The notes under the pieces are model-generated. The model saw nothing but the letters and a program-made list of their open reading frames with translations. It had not been told where the DNA came from and did no database searches. A program made the translations under genes and the position numbers. 37,587 nucleotides of DNA from positions 1 through 37,587 of the forward strand of contig JAITGD010000078.1 in assembly GCA_031280885.1 (NCBI GenBank). The letters are read 5' to 3'. Positions within the stretch are counted from its first letter, which is position 1, and each line of letters opens with the position of its first letter. This document shows, in pieces, positions 1 through 37,587 of the stretch. The DNA is from Prevotellaceae bacterium (GTDB taxonomy: Bacteria > Bacteroidota > Bacteroidia > Bacteroidales > UBA932).

Positions 1-3000
1 GGGCTGTATCTCTTTAAAGCGATACCGGAACGGCTGAAAAATTTTACGCAGATTGTAGCTAATTTCATCGAACTGAAGAAAAAACGCAATGCCGACAAGA
101 AATTAGCCATCTATTACTTTAAAGGAGCGGGGCAGGCCACACTTGCGGCGCAGGGATTGGAAACTGTGCCTTCGCTTTACAATTTTTTGCAACGGCTGAA
201 GGCGGAAGGATACCGCGTGGATGGACTTCCTGCGGATGTAGAAGCCTTTGAAGCGCTGCTGATGCGGCAGGGAGCGGTATTAAGTACCTATTCCGAAGGA
301 GCTTTTGATGATTTTCTGCGCGAGGGACAACCTGCTCTCGTGGAAGCAGGAGTTTATGAATCGTGGGCTGAAAAATCATTACCAAAAGGGCTGTATTCTG
401 ATGTGGTAAGGCAATACGGAGCTGCTCCCGGGCAATATATGTCGGTGATGAATGAAGAAAAAGCGCATTTAGCCGTAGCCCGCATCCTGCTTGGGAATGT
501 TTCACTGCTGCCACAACCAATGGCAGGGCTGGGAGACGATGCTTTTGCGATTGTACACGGAGCAAAATCGCCGCCACCGCATACTTATATCGCATCGTAC
601 CTCTGGGCGCAGCATGATTTTGAAGCTGATGCGATGCTTCACTTCGGAACGCACGGGAGTTTTGAGTTTACGCCGCAAAAACAGGTAGCCCTCAGCAGTT
701 ACGACTGGCCTGACCGCTTGGTGGGTAATATTCCGCACTTTTACTACTACACTATCGGCAATATCGGGGAGAGTATGATGGCGAAGCGCAGGTCTTACGC
801 CACGACGGTGTCGTATCTCACCCCCGCCTTTATGGAAACCGAGATGCGCGCACAGTTTAAGGCTTTGCAGGATAAGATTCGACAGTATTACGCGGCTAAG
901 GAGAGCGAACAGACGAAGCTTTCGCTGAGCGTGAAGCAGCTTGCCGTTGAAATGGGCTTGCATCGCGACTTGCGCTTGGACAGCGTCGGCAATAAGCCCT
1001 ACTCTTACGAAGAAATCGAGCGTATTGAGAATTTCGCAGAAGAAATTGCCAATGAAAAGATGACCGGGCATCTCTACACGTCGGGTATTCCGTACAGCAC
1101 GGAGAAAATTCGCTCGACCGTGATGGCTATGAGCGCCGATCCGATAGCTTATAGCCTTGCCAATCTTGATAAATTGAATGGAAAAGGAAGTGAAAAGCAG
1201 ATCGCAAACAGATCTTTCTTTACAAGGACCTATTTAGAGCCAGCACAGCTCTTAGTTTCGCAAATCATCGGAGGAAAAGAGGTGAACGATGCGCTTATCT
1301 GCTCAGTAGCAGGGATAAATTCCAAAGATTTGGAGGAAATAAAGACTATCCTTGCGCCTCCGCGTCGTGCCATGCCGGGTTCTATGCCTTCGGGAACAAA
1401 ATCTTCGGATGCAAAACAGTCTTCTGGTGGAGGACATCCGGCCTGGATTCCTAAATTTGGCAAGCCACCGCATGGAGATGAGAGTTCTGATGCAGAAAGC
1501 AAAAAGCAGAAAGCAGAAAGCAGAAGGCAGAAGGCAGAAAGCGGAAATATATCATCCGCAGAAAAGCCGAAAGTATATACAAAAGAAGAAAAAAACCGTG
1601 CAAGGGCTATTTCGGAGATTGAACGGACGATTCGGAACATCGTGAAATATAAAAAATCGCTGGAAGAAAGTCCGGAACAGGAATTTCAATCTATTTTAAA
1701 CGCTTTATCCGGCGGATATGTTGCGCCTTCGTCTGGAGGCGACGCGGTAGCGAATCCTTCTGCCGTTCCAACGGGTAGAAATTTGTATGCCATCAATGCA
1801 GAAGCCACGCCATCGGAGGTAGCCTGGGATAAAGGAGTCGCTTTGGCCAATGCCACGCTGGAACAATACAGAAAGCAGCACGGAGATTATCCACGAAAGG
1901 TAAGTTATACCTTTTGGAGCAGCGAGTTTATCGAAACCGAAGGAGCTACTATCGCGCAGGCTATATATATGCTGGGCGTAGAACCGGTTCGCGACGCATA
2001 CGGACGGGTTTCCGACCTGCGACTGATAAGTTCAGAAGCGCTCGGACGGCCTCGCGTGGACGTCGTAATACAAACTTCGGGTCAGTTTAGGGATTTGGCC
2101 GCATCAAGATTGAGTTTGATAAGCCGAGCGGTGGAAATGGCCGCAGCCGCCAAAGGAGATACGCACGAAAACAGGGTTTCTGCAAGCGTCATCGAAACAG
2201 AAAGGCTTTTAGTGGAAAGCGGAATCACGCCAAAGGAGGCTCGCGAGCTTTCGACGCAAAGAATTTTCGGAGGCATAAATGGTATGTATGGCAGTGGAAT
2301 ACAGGAAATGGTTACGAAGGGCGACCGTTGGGAGAACGAGCAGGAGATTGCCGATACATACATTCATAATATGGGCGCGATGTACGGCAGCGAAAAAGAT
2401 TGGGGCAAGTATCACGACGGCGCCTTGCGCGCTGCGCTCCACAACACGGACATTGTGGTGCAACCGAGGCAAAGTAATACATGGGGAGCGCTGAGTCTCG
2501 ACCACGTGTATGAGTTTATGGGCGGCCTGAACCTCTCTGTCCGCAACATCACCGGTAAAGACCCCGAAGCGTACTTCGCCGACTACCGTAACCGTAATAA
2601 TGTGCGGATGCAGGAGCTTAAAGAGGCCATCGGCGTGGAGTCTCGCGCCACCGTTTTCAATCCTGCGTACATTAAGGAGGTGATTCGGGGCAATGCGTCG
2701 AGCGCCGCGCAGATTACGGAGGTGATTACAAACACTTACGGATGGAATGTGATGAAACCGGCAGCTATCGACAACGAGATGTGGGATAAATTCTACGACG
2801 TGTATGTGAAAGACGAATACCGTCTGGGAACTGAGGACTTTTTCCGCCGCGAAAATCCGCAAGCCTTGCAGGAAATCACTGCCGTGATGCTCGAAACGGC
2901 TCGTAAAGGGATGTGGAAGGCTTCGGAGCAGCAGTTATCCGACGTCGCGAACTTGCATGTCGAATTGGTGAAGGACTTTGGCTCGTCGGCTTCCGGTTTT

Positions 3001-3267
3001 GCCGGAAGTAACGCGAAGCTGCACGACTTTATCGCAAAGAAAATCGACAACACTGCGGCTTCCGAATACAAAAAGCAGCTGCAAAAGATGCAGAAGGCTT
3101 CTTCGGACGTCGCGACGGTGGATAATGAGGGTATCCGTTTGAAGAAAGACGAAATAAGTTCGTCCGAAACAGGCGAAACAAACCGGCTTAACGGAATGAT
3201 TACGGTTAGCGTAGTCATCGCGCTGTTTATTTTATTGATGATTATGCTTAGACGGAGAAGAAAATAA
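1..3267 (+). CDS. CobN/BchH-family chelatase large subunit (CobN-like, possibly HmuS-like), 5'-truncated by window edge, with C-terminal TM anchor
   Basis: Frame 1 is open from base 1 upstream of the listed ATG at 157. CobN-type motifs HFGTHGSFEFTPQKQVALSSYDWPDRLVGNIPHFYYY...AKRRSYATTVSYLTP and GGINGMYGSGIQEMVTKGDRWENEQEIADTY. Ends in hydrophobic VSVVIALFILLMIMLRRRRK. Confidence 0.9.
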   Translation, partial: GLYLFKAIPERLKNFTQIVANFIELKKKRNADKKLAIYYFKGAGQATLAAQGLETVPSLYNFLQRLKAEGYRVDGLPADVEAFEALLMRQGAVLSTYSEGAFDDFLREGQPALVEAGVYESWAEKSLPKGLYSDVVRQYGAAPGQYMSVMNEEKAHLAVARILLGNVSLLPQPMAGLGDDAFAIVHGAKSPPPHTYIASYLWAQHDFEADAMLHFGTHGSFEFTPQKQVALSSYDWPDRLVGNIPHFYYYTIGNIGESMMAKRRSYATTVSYLTPAFMETEMRAQFKALQDKIRQYYAAKESEQTKLSLSVKQLAVEMGLHRDLRLDSVGNKPYSYEEIERIENFAEEIANEKMTGHLYTSGIPYSTEKIRSTVMAMSADPIAYSLANLDKLNGKGSEKQIANRSFFTRTYLEPAQLLVSQIIGGKEVNDALICSVAGINSKDLEEIKTILAPPRRAMPGSMPSGTKSSDAKQSSGGGHPAWIPKFGKPPHGDESSDAESKKQKAESRRQKAESGNISSAEKPKVYTKEEKNRARAISEIERTIRNIVKYKKSLEESPEQEFQSILNALSGGYVAPSSGGDAVANPSAVPTGRNLYAINAEATPSEVAWDKGVALANATLEQYRKQHGDYPRKVSYTFWSSEFIETEGATIAQAIYMLGVEPVRDAYGRVSDLRLISSEALGRPRVDVVIQTSGQFRDLAASRLSLISRAVEMAAAAKGDTHENRVSASVIETERLLVESGITPKEARELSTQRIFGGINGMYGSGIQEMVTKGDRWENEQEIADTYIHNMGAMYGSEKDWGKYHDGALRAALHNTDIVVQPRQSNTWGALSLDHVYEFMGGLNLSVRNITGKDPEAYFADYRNRNNVRMQELKEAIGVESRATVFNPAYIKEVIRGNASSAAQITEVITNTYGWNVMKPAAIDNEMWDKFYDVYVKDEYRLGTEDFFRRENPQALQEITAVMLETARKGMWKASEQQLSDVANLHVELVKDFGSSASGFAGSNAKLHDFIAKKIDNTAASEYKKQLQKMQKASSDVATVDNEGIRLKKDEISSSETGETNRLNGMITVSVVIALFILLMIMLRRRRK
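1492..1547 (+). repeat. In-frame array of eight 7-bp units (GCAGAAA/GCAGAAG variants) inside the chelatase CDS
   Basis: gcagaaa gcaaaaa gcagaaa gcagaaa gcagaag gcagaag gcagaaa gcggaaa, encoding AESKKQKAESRRQKAES in a variable linker. Confidence 0.9.
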
Positions 3268-3400: not shown

Positions 3401-3560
3401 TGCAGAAAGCAGAAGGATTTTTGCAGAAAGCAGAAGGCAGAAAGCAGAAAGCAGATTGTTTTTTGCAGAAAGCAGAAGGCAGAAAGCAGAAAGCAGAAGG
3501 CAGAAAGCAGAAAGCAGATTGTTTTTTGCAGAAAGCAGAAGGCAGAAAGCAGAAAGCAGA
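3401..3560. repeat. Intergenic 7-bp-period array (GCAGAAA/GCAGAAG) with a higher-order unit ttttttgcagaaagcagaaggcagaaagcagaaagcaga
   Basis: Direct reading; same units as the array inside the chelatase CDS. Confidence 0.9.
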
Positions 3561-3728
3561 GGGTTTTTACGAGAGAAAGATGGGTTTTTAGCAAAGCACG
3601 AAGGGTTTTTACGAGAGAAAGATGGGTTTTTAGCAAAGCACGAAGGGTTTTTAGAGATGAAAGATGGGTTTTTAGCACAGCATGAAGGGTTTTTAGAGAT
3701 GAAAGATGGGTTTTTAGAGGTGAAGGAT
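3561..3728. repeat. 21-bp minisatellite, eight units of gggttttta-N12
   Basis: gggtttttacgagagaaagat / gggtttttagcaaagcacgaa / gggtttttagagatgaaagat variants, 8 x 21 bp, directly abutting the 7-bp array. Confidence 0.9.
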
Positions 3729-3785: not shown

Positions 3786-3870
3786 TTTTACCGCAAAGGG
3801 CGCAAAGTTTACGCAAGGTACGCAAGGGCATTGCGATCTTTGCGTAAACTTTGCGCCCTTTGCGGTAAAA
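3786..3870. repeat. Perfect 31-bp inverted repeat with 23-nt loop
   Basis: Left arm TTTTACCGCAAAGGGCGCAAAGTTTACGCAA (3786-3816); right arm TTGCGTAAACTTTGCGCCCTTTGCGGTAAAA (3840-3870) is its exact reverse complement. Confidence 0.95.
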
Positions 3871-4003
3871 GGTCTCCGGTATTTTTGCCATGAAACATAA
3901 ATAACTTATATATTGCACATCCTTAATAAAAGCGAGAGGCAATCTTTTTTCAAAAAAAATGGAAGAAATTAGAGTTGCAGTGTACGTGAAAGAAAAAAAT
4001 GAT

Positions 4004-4755: not shown

Positions 4756-4819
4756 ATTATGAATTATGAATTATGAATTGGCTACGCAGTCAATTAAGAA
4801 TTAAGAATAATGAATAATG
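4749..4819. repeat. Heptad array (AATTATG)n - GCTACGCAG - (AATTAAG)2(AATAATG)2 filling the gap between 4066 CDS and moxR
   Basis: Stop codon TGA (4753-4755) and moxR ATG (4817-4819) both lie within array units. Confidence 0.9.
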
Positions 4820-9499: not shown

Positions 9500-12400
9500 T
9501 CAAAAAGTTAAATTAAGACCAAGGCTAAAAGTTCTCGATGAAGGAATAGACGAGTACAGCAAATATCCTTGAACTCCAAAGATGTCGGTATCGTCGTAGC
9601 CTTTGTAGTCGCTGGTAAAGAGCGTGTAAAGATTGTCGGCGGATGCCCATACTTTTGCTTCGGAGAATATTTTTGAAAATGCTCCGAGAGTGTTCGGTAG
9701 CGTATATGACAGGGTTATATTCTTCAATTTAAAGTATGTAGCATTGTACAGAAATCTTGTTGAAAGACTGTTCGAGCCAGAAGAGTTGTTTACAGCAAAA
9801 CGCGGGACGTCGGTCGCCTGTCCTGGTGTAGTCCAGGCTTTTGCAGCGTCGGCGTGCATGTTGTATCCGGGGTTCGAGCCGTCGTGCATAATCGAGGAAT
9901 ACAATCCGTCGTATAATTTTCCGCCGATGCTGTAGTTCAGTTGTATCGACAGGTCGAAGTTTTTATACGAAAAGCTGTTAGTCAATCCTCCAAATACATC
10001 GGGAGTTGAACGGCCTTGTTTTTCGAGGGTGGCCTGCGTGTAAACGTTTGTGGTAGTTCTGGCGCCGTCTGATTCAACTTTGTACCAGAGAGGATCTCCG
10101 GTTTGCGCATCCACGCCAGCCCAAGTTGGCATGTAAAATTCGTACTGACTTCCGCCCACGCTCCATATCTTTTGATACTCTGTCATAGGCACATCGTCGT
10201 CGCCATTCAGGTCTTTGATTTTATCGCTGATGATGGATGCATTGAAATTTGCTTTCCATTTTAAATCGCCTGTCAGAATCACTGCTCCCAGATCAAATTC
10301 CAAACCGTAATTGGAAGTTCTGGCAGCATTCATGGTGATCTTATTGAATCCGTTGGACTTTGCCAGCGGATAATCGTAAAGCAGACCGTCGGAAATTTTG
10401 TTGAAATAGTCTATCGAGCCATATATTCTTTTCGAGAAACTGAAATCGATTCCGAGATTGAACATGGCTTGTTTTTCCCAGCTCAGGAATAAGTTAGCCA
10501 ATTGAGTATGTCCTGCGCCGGCATTATTACCGTACAGATAATCAGAAGACACAGTCCAAAGTCCTTGCGAAGCATAGCGTACCAAATCTTTGCTCAGGCT
10601 GGTCAAACCGCTTTTATTGCCCGAAGTTCCGTAGCTTAGGCGCAGTTTCAGATTATCAACTATTTCGAGGTCTTTCATAAAACTTTCTTCGGAAATTCTC
10701 CATGAAGCTCCCGCGCTCCAGAAAGTTCCCCATTTGGTGTTGTTTCCGAAAATCGAAGAACCGTCGGAACGCAAACTTGCCGAGAAGTTATATTTCTCGG
10801 CGAAAGCGTATTCTATGCGTCCGAAGTAAGAAATCAGCACTTCTTTGGTTGTGTTCGACGAGGGAGCGAAAGAACCTGAGGCTGCGGCCAATTCCTGCAT
10901 GTTGCCCAACAAATCTCGTCCTCCGGCGTAAAGCGATTCGTAGGTGCTTTCCCAGTATTCCATTCCGAGCAAAGCGCTAATGTTGTGATCTTTGGCGAAG
11001 GTTCGAGAGTAAGTCAGCGTATTGGTGCTGGTGTACATCAAATCGGTATTGTGATATTTGTCCAAACGACCCTTGTAAGGGGGTCCGTTTCCGTGCAATT
11101 TATTCCAATAACGATGTTCGTCCGTAGTAACAAAGTCCGGAGAAAGTACTGTTTTGAAATTCAGGCCTTCCAATAGAGTAAAGTTAGCATAAGCCGAGGC
11201 CAGCACTCTGTAGAATTTGCTTCTGTGCGCGTCCATGTAAGGGATTGCCAGCGGATTAAAGTCCAAGTTCACCGGATTCACGAAGTTGTATTGTTTTTGA
11301 CCGCTTGCATCAAGAACAGGATTTCCCTGTTGATCAACTACATAAATCGGAATTGCATTTGAAAACATCAAAGCGTTGTTGATAGGCGAAGCGCCTGCCG
11401 AGCCTGCTACTGTTGTGTTTTGGATGGAGTGAGTAAAAGAAACATTCAGTCCTGTTTTAAACCACGGAGTAGCCTGAGTGTTAATGTTTAACTTCCCTGA
11501 ATAGCGTTTGAAATCGCCTGCCGGAGCGATACCATTCTGATTGGTGTATCCTGCGGAAAAAAAGTAGTCTGATTTATCCGAAGCGCCGCTCACATTCAGG
11601 TTATAATCTAAGGATGGCGCTGTTTTGAAAACCTCGTCTTGCCAGGTATTGTCCACCACAATAGCAGCTCCGCTTACCGGATTTCCACTGGCGTCCAAGG
11701 GATTGTCCAAGTTATAGGGATTGTGAGTCAGCGAACCTTGAGTCTTTTTATTTGCGGAAATCACGCTTTCACCTGCGTTTAAATATCCGTTGAACAATTG
11801 CTTGTAGAGCGAGGCGGAACTCATTGTTTCGTATGCTTTTGCAAGCGAAGTCCAGGAATGACGCAGACTGAAGTTTACCTTTGCTTTACCGGCTTTTCCG
11901 CTTTTGGTGGTAATCACTACCACGCCGTTTGCGGCTCTCGAACCGTACAGAGCTGCGGCGGCAGCATCTTTCAAAATCGTTACCGACTCAATATCACTTG
12001 GATTGATGGCCGCCATGATGTTACTGCTCGATTCGTGATTATAGGCGATTTCGCTGTATTCAGTAGTTGTAACAGGAACTCCATCAACCACATACAAAGG
12101 TTCGTTGGATGCGCTCAGCGAACCGGAACCTCTGATACGAAAATTTGTGGCCGAGCCGGGTTGTCCCGACGAGGAAATCACTTGAACTCCTGCTACTTGT
12201 CCGGCCAAAGATTTGTCGAATGAAGCTGCCGGAGCGCGAAGCATATCTCCATTCACATTTACAGCCGAACCGGTAAAAGCCGATTTTTTGACCGTACCGT
12301 AAGCTACCACCAAAACCTCGCTCAGCGAAGTGGCTTCCTCGCTCAGCGACACGTTTATCTCGGTACGTCCGCCAAGCAATTCTTCGCGAGTTTCGTATCC

Positions 12401-12621
12401 GACAAAAGTGAAAACAAGCGTAGCTTCCGCCGGCGCGCTGATGCTGTATTCGCCTGTGTTACCGGTTGTTGCAGATACGCTGCTTCCTTTTACAACGACG
12501 GTTACTCCGGGCATCGATTGTCCGGAATTTGAATCGCTCACCTTTCCGGTGATCCTCGTTTGGGCTGAAGCCCATTCTGATCCTGCTAAAAATACAGTCA
12601 GGAACAGTAAAATAAATCGTT

Positions 12622-12628
<7 letters not shown>
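9500..12628 (-). CDS. SusC/RagA-family TonB-linked outer membrane protein
   Basis: Carboxypeptidase-like N-terminal domain TGKVSDSNSGQSMPGVTVVVKGSS; plug NPSDIESVTILKDAAAAALYGSRAANGVVVITTKSGK; terminal beta-barrel strand ending NLTF. Confidence 0.95.
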
Positions 12629-13111
<483 letters not shown>

Positions 13112-18333: not shown

Positions 18334-18500
18334 GATTCAGGATTGCAAGAACCAAGAGCCAGGACGCTACGCAGGCTGGCTTGATGAATTTTTAATTGTA
18401 AAAGCCATACTGCGTAGCGTCCTAATTCTTGGTTCTTGCAATCTTGAATCATCCAGACTGCGTAGCGTCTTGGCTCTTGGCTCTTGAAATCTTGGCTCTC
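18334..18500. repeat. Three heptad-array + GCTACGCAG units (one plus, two minus in tandem) forming a long inverted repeat
   Basis: Plus gattcaggattgcaagaaccaagagccaggacGCTACGCAGgctgg; minus gagccaagatttcaagagccaagagccaagacGCTACGCAGtctggatgattcaagattgcaagaaccaagaattaggacGCTACGCAGtatgg. Confidence 0.92.
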
Positions 18501-23903: not shown

Positions 23904-24176
<273 letters not shown>

Positions 24177-24259: not shown

Positions 24260-25579
24260 ATGAGAGTAAAAATCTTAAAAATTTCAAATTTATTTCTTGC
24301 TGTGGCGGCGATAACGGTAGTTTTAGCCTATTCGTGCAAGAACGAGGACGACAAATCCTCGAACAAGCCATACGACCCTTCCAGACCGGTGGTGCTGGAC
24401 TCGTTTTATCCCGATTCCGGTGGTATGGCGACTAAGATAATTATGACCGGAAGTAACTTTGGTAATGATGCTTCGGCAATCAAAGTTTATTTCAATCAGA
24501 AACGAGCTGCAATAGTTTCGAGCAATGGAACTCAGCTCTTTGTGATAACTCCGAAACAGCCCGGCGACACTTGCACGATTTCGGTAGTCGTAGGCAACGA
24601 TTCGGTGATCAGCGATCACAAGTTCAGATACCGCACTTCGGTAACGGTTACAACGGTAGTCGGTCAAAAGGGAACAGGCGAGTTCAAAGCCGGAACTTTG
24701 GCCGAAGCAACTTTCGATAAACCAAGGTTTTTGTGCGTGGATGCAGAAGATAATCTTTTCCTCGCGCACTGGGATAATCCCAAGAACATTGTCATTATCA
24801 ATCAAAGGAAAAATTATGTAGCTGAACTTGTTAATGCGGGCGACAGAGCAAATGTGCCGGCTCCCGATGCTTCCGGAAAAGTAATACTTGTGCCTCTGGA
24901 TGGAGGTTACAATTACTATGGTTTCGACCCTGATGCTCAATGGGCTGCAAAAAGATTAACTATGCTGCGTCCAACGACGGAAGAAGTAACGGCCGGAAAA
25001 CTTGATTATACTATCAATTGGAAACATGGTTTTGCAACTAACGAAATCGACGGACTGATTTATACCCGTGCTTATGATGGTCAGCTCATCCGTTTCAATC
25101 CGATAACCAGAGCGGGAGAACGTGTTACTTCGGATATTTTGATGCCCGATACCGACTCGTATCTGCTCTTTCATCCCGACGATAAAAATATTTTGTACTT
25201 AACGTATCCTGCAAAGCATGTGGTATATACATACAATCTGGATACGGGCGAACATTTGAGATATGCCGGTTCGCTGAATGTGTCCGGATGGAGAGACGGA
25301 GACAGGCTCGATGCCGAATTAAATTCGCCTCGACAGATAGTTTTCGACGAAGAGCGGGCAATAGTCATTGCCGACGAAGGTAATCACTGCATACGGAAAA
25401 TCACTCCCGACGGAATTGTTACAACCGTCATAGGCATGGGCGGAAAATCGGGCTATCAGGATGGAAATCCCGACGATGCTTTGTTCAATCGCCCCACAGG
25501 AATAGCTATAGATTCTGATTACAATATCTATATAGCTGATTCTGAAAATAATTGTATCCGAAAACTTGCGATAGAATAA
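24260..25579 (+). CDS. IPT/TIG domain + NHL-repeat lipoprotein
   Basis: Lipobox-like LAYSCKN; TIG-like VVLDSFYPDSGGMATKIIMTGSNFGND; NHL-like FNRPTGIAIDSDYNIYIADSENNCIRKL. Confidence 0.88.
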   Translation: MRVKILKISNLFLAVAAITVVLAYSCKNEDDKSSNKPYDPSRPVVLDSFYPDSGGMATKIIMTGSNFGNDASAIKVYFNQKRAAIVSSNGTQLFVITPKQPGDTCTISVVVGNDSVISDHKFRYRTSVTVTTVVGQKGTGEFKAGTLAEATFDKPRFLCVDAEDNLFLAHWDNPKNIVIINQRKNYVAELVNAGDRANVPAPDASGKVILVPLDGGYNYYGFDPDAQWAAKRLTMLRPTTEEVTAGKLDYTINWKHGFATNEIDGLIYTRAYDGQLIRFNPITRAGERVTSDILMPDTDSYLLFHPDDKNILYLTYPAKHVVYTYNLDTGEHLRYAGSLNVSGWRDGDRLDAELNSPRQIVFDEERAIVIADEGNHCIRKITPDGIVTTVIGMGGKSGYQDGNPDDALFNRPTGIAIDSDYNIYIADSENNCIRKLAIE

Positions 25580-37130: not shown

Positions 37131-37308
37131 TTATGAATTATGAATTATGAATTATGAATTAGCTACGCAGTCTGGATTAGTGAAGCATGGTTCGGCCTTA
37201 GACAATCAAGTGCAAGACAATCAAAGCAGCCGCCGCAGGTAATTCATAATTCATAATTCATAATTCATAATTCATAATTCATAATTCATAATTCATAATT
37301 CATAATTC
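37131..37308. repeat. Inverted heptad arrays (GAATTAT)n - GCTACGCAGTCTGG - ... - (AATTCAT)n
   Basis: Left array about 37131-37160, core 37162-37174, right array about 37240-37308. Confidence 0.92.
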
Positions 37309-37396: not shown

Positions 37397-37560
37397 AAAG
37401 TCCCGCAGGGACGACGCTTTATTAACCGTAGGCTTTAACCTACGGAGAGCAGATATACACACTCTCCCAAAGTCCCGCAGGGACGACACTTTATTAACCG
37501 TAGGCTTTAGCCTACGGAGAGCAGATATACACACTCTCCCAAAGTCCCGCAGGGACGACA
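37397..37560. repeat. 72-bp direct repeat, about 2.2 copies, two palindromes per unit
   Basis: AGTCCCGCAGGGACGAC starts at 37399, 37471, 37543; units contain GTCCC-GCA-GGGAC and CCGTAGG-CTTTAR-CCTACGG. Confidence 0.92.
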
Positions 37561-37587
37561 CTTGAAAATCAATAGTATTAAGTGCCG

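Follow-up and report, generated by a model that had tools for sequence, protein, structure and literature searches.

An in-frame heptanucleotide repeat array in the methionine-rich insertion of HmuS from a Prevotellaceae bacterium

The hmuS gene and its heptanucleotide array

The analyzed stretch of DNA, in the following called the window, comprises the 37,587 nucleotides of contig JAITGD010000078.1 from the assembly GCA_031280885.1 of a Prevotellaceae bacterium. The assembly (G000) has a size of 2.66 Mb in 212 contigs and is about 89% complete. The window starts within a gene that has an open frame of 1088 amino acids (aa) and a stop codon at 3265-3267. Contig C182 starts with an exact repeat of the first 119 nucleotides of the window, showing that the gene is cut by the contig edge. 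The gene product matched the CobN-Mg_chel family (PF02514, E 3e-266), and a preliminary description of this DNA had called the gene CobN-like. However, the gene is not CobN proper. The best match among solved structures was HmuS (PDB 9d26, 1360.7 bits), whereas the scores of other class 1 chelatases were lower (ChlH 329.5 bits, CobN 311.2 bits), and none of the CobN or BchH equivalog models matched the gene product at cut-off. Therefore, judged from its sequence, the gene is better called hmuS, for heme de-chelatase, than cobN. HmuS serves iron acquisition (PMC12583661). The closest named relatives of the gene are found in Bacteroidales MAGs, which probably stem from termite guts. The features of the region are listed in Table 1.

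Table 1. Coordinates of hmuS, its repeat array and the adjacent repeats in the window
Feature	Position	Strand	Basis
hmuS of the heme de-chelatase type (CobN/Mg-chelatase superfamily), 5' truncated by the contig start	1..3267	+	PF02514, 9d26
Methionine-rich insertion (MRI) region of HmuS, codons 455-522, hypervariable, predicted disordered	1363..1566	+	homologue lengths, AF2, 9d26 alignment
In-frame GCAGAAA-type array, 8 units, codes AESKKQKAESRRQKAES(G)	1492..1547	+	TRF, units, frames
Second, interrupted GCAGAAA-type array, intergenic after hmuS	3401..3560	+	TRF, sequence
42-bp tandem repeat GGGTTTTTAGCAAAGCACGAAGGGTTTTTACGAGAGAAAGAT, unrelated motif, adjoins the second array	3561..3719	+	TRF, sequence

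Within hmuS, TRF detected a period-7 array of 56 bp with 8.0 copies and 89% matches, and its bounds and copy number agreed exactly with the eight in-frame units of the preliminary description. The order of the units is GCAGAAA GCAAAAA GCAGAAA GCAGAAA GCAGAAG GCAGAAG GCAGAAA GCGGAAA. The array is thus imperfect: its 8 units include four variants, and its longest exact tract spans 23 bp. It encodes residues 498-516, AESKKQKAESRRQKAES followed by G, and these 19 residues are rich in Lys, Arg, Glu, Ala, Ser and Gln and do not include methionine. Over the 56-bp stretch, 44 of 49 positions matched at period 7, whereas 1000 codon shuffles of hmuS yielded 28 matches at most, which excludes a chance origin of the period-7 signal. 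The heptad had also been described as free of stop codons in any frame, and indeed (GCAGAAA)n is open in all six. An RNA hairpin in the intragenic array was considered and rejected, because the signal was weak (z about -2), unlike that of a convergent AATTATG pair (z -7.4).

It had further been stated that the identical repeat recurs as non-coding DNA after the gene. The recurrence is real, but "identical" is too loose a word, because the blocks of the second array are split by TTTTT-rich spacers and form higher-order periods of 21, 42 and 63 bp. Two additional repeats were observed in the window, an inverted repeat of CGCAAAGG-type units (ACCGCAAAGGGCGCAAAGTTTACGCAA...) at 3788-3872, which is also present at another locus (L109), and a 72-bp tandem repeat (AAAGTCCCGCAGGGACGACACTTTATTAACCGTAGG...) at 37397-37563, of which similar copies lie near other arrays (L097). 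No Rfam family matched the window at the gathering score.

The insertion site in the protein

Residues of about 455-522 aligned to about 777-895 of 9d26, a stretch that falls into the MRI of B. theta HmuS (780-898). The MRI has been characterized as a low-complexity, length-variable region without cryo-EM density, with a mean length of 82 and a minimum of 22 residues over 680 HmuS proteins (PMC12583661). In the AF2 model, which has a modest overall confidence (mean 65.5), residues 455-522 form the longest coil of very low confidence (pLDDT about 26-43) and lack secondary structure. The alignment and the model thus place in the gene product the variable, disordered insertion in domain IV that characterizes HmuS. 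It resembles the published MRI in protein position, disorder and variable length, and differs from it in that 19 methionine-free residues come from a heptad array.

The aligned linker, flanks included, ranged from 37 to 176 aa over 35 intact homologues, and it comprised 100 aa here versus 81 aa in the closest homologue, which is encoded by a genome of the same genus (G012). The segment encoded by the array was missing from this closest homologue as well as from all other aligned homologues, and the peptide AESRRQK was not present in the linker alignment of the 35 intact homologues. These results support the earlier view that the segment is an insertion, as they reveal a lineage-specific in-frame gain. 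Conservation of the charged linker in homologues without the nucleotide repeat, which had been named as the observation that would contradict this view, was not found.

Three hmuS homologues (L067, L072, L086) contain other tandem peptide repeats in the linker, such as HPHAKMAKGG and SPHGTNAK. Because other species carry tandem repeats of their own at this site, the MRI linker may be particularly prone to the growth of repeats. The linker of Bacteroidales Barb4 (L058, VVARKP) was considered as an independent case of a dispersed repeat, but was rejected because the unit is confined to that site in its genome.

Dispersion and arrangement of the arrays

The 21-mer GCAGAARx3 had 356 matches in this genome (183+173), 15 matches in G012 and none in 29 other relatives, and the reversed control also yielded 0 matches. 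Among 297 genomes sampled over the whole phylum, 3 contained four consecutive GCAGAAR units, one of them being the unrelated genome G082 (37 matches). A peptide scan gave 138 matches, which we grouped into about 43 loci. None of these except the hmuS array lies in a long open frame: the frame there has 1088 aa, and the second-longest has 256 aa. The positions of all period-7/8 arrays were analyzed with a simple gene caller of our own in contigs C1-C51 (534 kb, at most 20 kb per contig), a sample that is 78% coding and slightly biased, as C23 and C26 were represented by array-bearing stretches only. In this sample, 123 of 132 arrays were intergenic, and of the remaining nine, seven were at most 25 nt away from a stop codon. 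The purine strand of intergenic GCAGAAR arrays leaves the nearest gene in 18 of 24 cases. It seems that arrays persist only where they are harmless.

At several gene ends (L100, L109, L132, L160, L130, L126), heptad arrays are translated as C-terminal tails, for example QASRKQKAES and NQDFKNQDFKNQ. The proteins with such tails include a thioredoxin (L100), a methyltransferase (L160) and, outside the C1-C51 sample, a GNAT-like protein (L109). Mobilization of the repeat by a REP/RAYT system was also considered and rejected, because the Y1 transposase family PF01797, which is present in 15 of 26 genomes searched, had no match in G012 or in the about 89% complete G000.

Neighbouring oriented heptad and octad arrays converge, with forward-then-reverse orders prevailing 31:1 in G000 and 12:0 in G012; the families and orientations were set by us after the first examples, and therefore the binomial values are indicative. 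The convergent pairs of G000 include 13 that are composed of different motif families, and these 13 cannot simply be hairpin arms. In the window, convergent pairs fill the intergenic regions at 5820-5901/5975-6030, 16556-16682/16723-16847 and 37128-37161/37240-37309, and further examples were found at L095-L113. A 9-bp separator, GCTACGCAG, occurred 104 times in 681 kb of sampled G000 loci compared with about 5 expected occurrences, i.e. about 20 times above chance, and it was nearly absent from relatives. With GCTACGCAG between the arrays, the nesting order is AAGAACC, then AATTAAG/AATTATG, then GCAGAAA. Separator sites of the window lie at 4780-4790, 18366-18466 and 37162-37175. In G012, nested AATTACG arrays with another separator directly follow the hmuS stop codon (L012 from 7284). 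Of 60 genomes sampled from the whole order, 9 contained AATTAYG arrays, in a patchy distribution.

We tentatively consider, as a possible but rather doubtful reading, that these arrangements represent a previously undescribed type of modular element between genes that has a fixed nested order around a GCTACGCAG-type separator, varies in motif and separator at corresponding sites of related species, and feeds new protein segments, its convergent heptad and octad families spilling into gene ends and disordered linkers. The nested, convergent grammar with GCTACGCAG is more interesting than the hmuS copy, and it is a separate and testable subject.

Origin of the hmuS array and comparison with known repeat systems

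The array is probably a copy of the dispersed family that became established in the MRI of hmuS, with the reading frame kept and the extra residues being harmless. The dispersion of the family, its near absence in relatives, the in-frame placement of the array and its hypervariable, predicted-disordered site were observed, and the hmuS array looks like tolerated clutter. The heptanucleotide family would have proliferated in this species, for the most part between genes, and one copy or seed would then have expanded within the disordered MRI, having arrived either by copying of the dispersed family or by replication slippage from a short seed. We propose that the array was kept because its net length preserved the frame, a length of 19 aa above that of G012 that purifying selection would have maintained. 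The peptide presumably has no special function, but the added Lys/Arg/Glu-rich residues may have one. The match of the array to the dispersed family favours copying over a local seed.

A purely local origin would involve slippage from the Ala-Glu-Lys codons of the linker itself, and the likeness to the family would then be a coincidence or a convergence. Such codons (GCA GAA AAG, GCAGAAAAG) are indeed located just downstream of the array at 1558-1566, the linkers of L067, L072 and L086 contain codon-sized repeats of their own, and the two-copy 18-bp repeat of L058 is local and found nowhere else in its genome. However, codon-sized growth would yield periods divisible by three, as it did in those homologues, whereas the hmuS array has the motif of the dispersed family, down to the G/A variation at position 7, and a further GCAGAAA-type array is situated 1.9 kb downstream. 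We therefore regard a local origin as unlikely.

The preliminary description had also suggested that hmuS could be a contingency locus, in which slippage of the array toggles HmuS by frameshifting, as known for intragenic simple repeats of host-adapted bacteria. Its premise, that changes in unit number not divisible by three shift the frame, was borne out by simulation: gain or loss of one or two units truncated the protein at 535-552 aa, whereas a change of three units kept the frame, and thus a switch is formally possible. In addition, the array has no stop codon in any of its three frames, intragenic heptanucleotide tracts have been reported for H. influenzae (PMC2651432), and iron acquisition via HmuS is a possible selectable trait (PMC12583661). 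However, the array lacks a long uninterrupted tract, as its 8 variable units compare with mostly about 13-38 units in the phase-variation tracts of H. influenzae (PMC2651432), the product of the host gene is an enzyme rather than a surface antigen, and the repeat is a genome-wide family with nearly all loci intergenic. Given this short, imperfect tract in a gene for an enzyme, the idea of a contingency locus, though possible, lacks support, and we consider it very improbable. More promising candidates for phase-variable promoters than the array in hmuS are two perfect tracts of the window, (TG)37.5 at 12892-12966, about 265 bp upstream of the gene for a SusC-like receptor (9500-12628, minus strand), and (AG)30 at 23992-24051, about 209 bp upstream of a gene for a surface-protein-like product (24260-25579).

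An assembly artefact, i.e. a false connection of two unrelated parts of the MAG at the array, is the least credible explanation: the assembly is fragmented and contigs C13 and C79 end inside such arrays, but both flanks of the hmuS array encode collinear HmuS in one open frame with an overall identity of 76% to the G012 protein, frame and domain order would hardly be intact after a chimeric join, and 56 bp should be shorter than a usual short read.

An established copy of a dispersed family illustrates which sites of a compact genome are open to a spreading 7-bp repeat, namely intergenic regions, C-terminal tails and a disordered enzyme insertion. It also cautions that an intragenic simple repeat need not be a switch, and it explains charged, AESRRQK-like stretches of predicted proteins as translated repeat DNA.

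We assign the hmuS array to a known type, the dispersed intergenic heptamer repeats that are occasionally tolerated in genes. Such heptamers are already known from Xanthomonas, Nostoc, Beggiatoaceae and a few Bacteroidetes (PMC4692102, PMC4679880), and GCAGAAR shares the features of this type, i.e. period-7 arrays at many loci, a mostly intergenic location and a strand preference. The single in-frame copy within an enzyme gene is unusual. In the literature searched, we found no earlier description of these arrays in Bacteroidales.

The heptamers of Xanthomonas and Nostoc (GGGAATC / GGGGA(T/C)T) are often located less than 50 bp from a stop codon or overlap it, those of Xanthomonas are 89-93% intergenic, and phase variation was judged unlikely there (PMC4692102). 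The arrays described here are likewise dispersed, mostly intergenic, often near stop codons and of preferred strand relative to the gene. In contrast, the GCAGAAR motif does not resemble a G-quadruplex, the genome has several coexisting heptad and octad families that are nested with a separator, and one copy sits mid-gene and in frame in the coding sequence of an enzyme. TAACTGA heptamers occur in marine Beggiatoaceae, Cyanobacteria and some Bacteroidetes, in some of which the arrays are long (PMC4679880). They also form short heptad arrays in many intergenic regions with a patchy distribution over lineages, but they have another motif and are mostly found just upstream of start codons (PMC4679880), whereas most arrays here lie close to the 3' ends of genes and form convergent pairs. 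The tracts of H. influenzae, including those of hmw1A and hmw2A, share the 7-bp unit, the presence of a few within ORFs and the frame-shifting effect of slippage; however, they are longer and are located in genes for surface proteins (PMC2651432), in contrast to the 8 variant units in an enzyme gene. Finally, in the amino-acid tandem repeats of Borgs, repeat DNA also produces disordered protein segments and related intergenic repeats exist, but the units of the Borg ORF repeats are all divisible by three (PMC9879509), unlike the 7-bp unit in hmuS.
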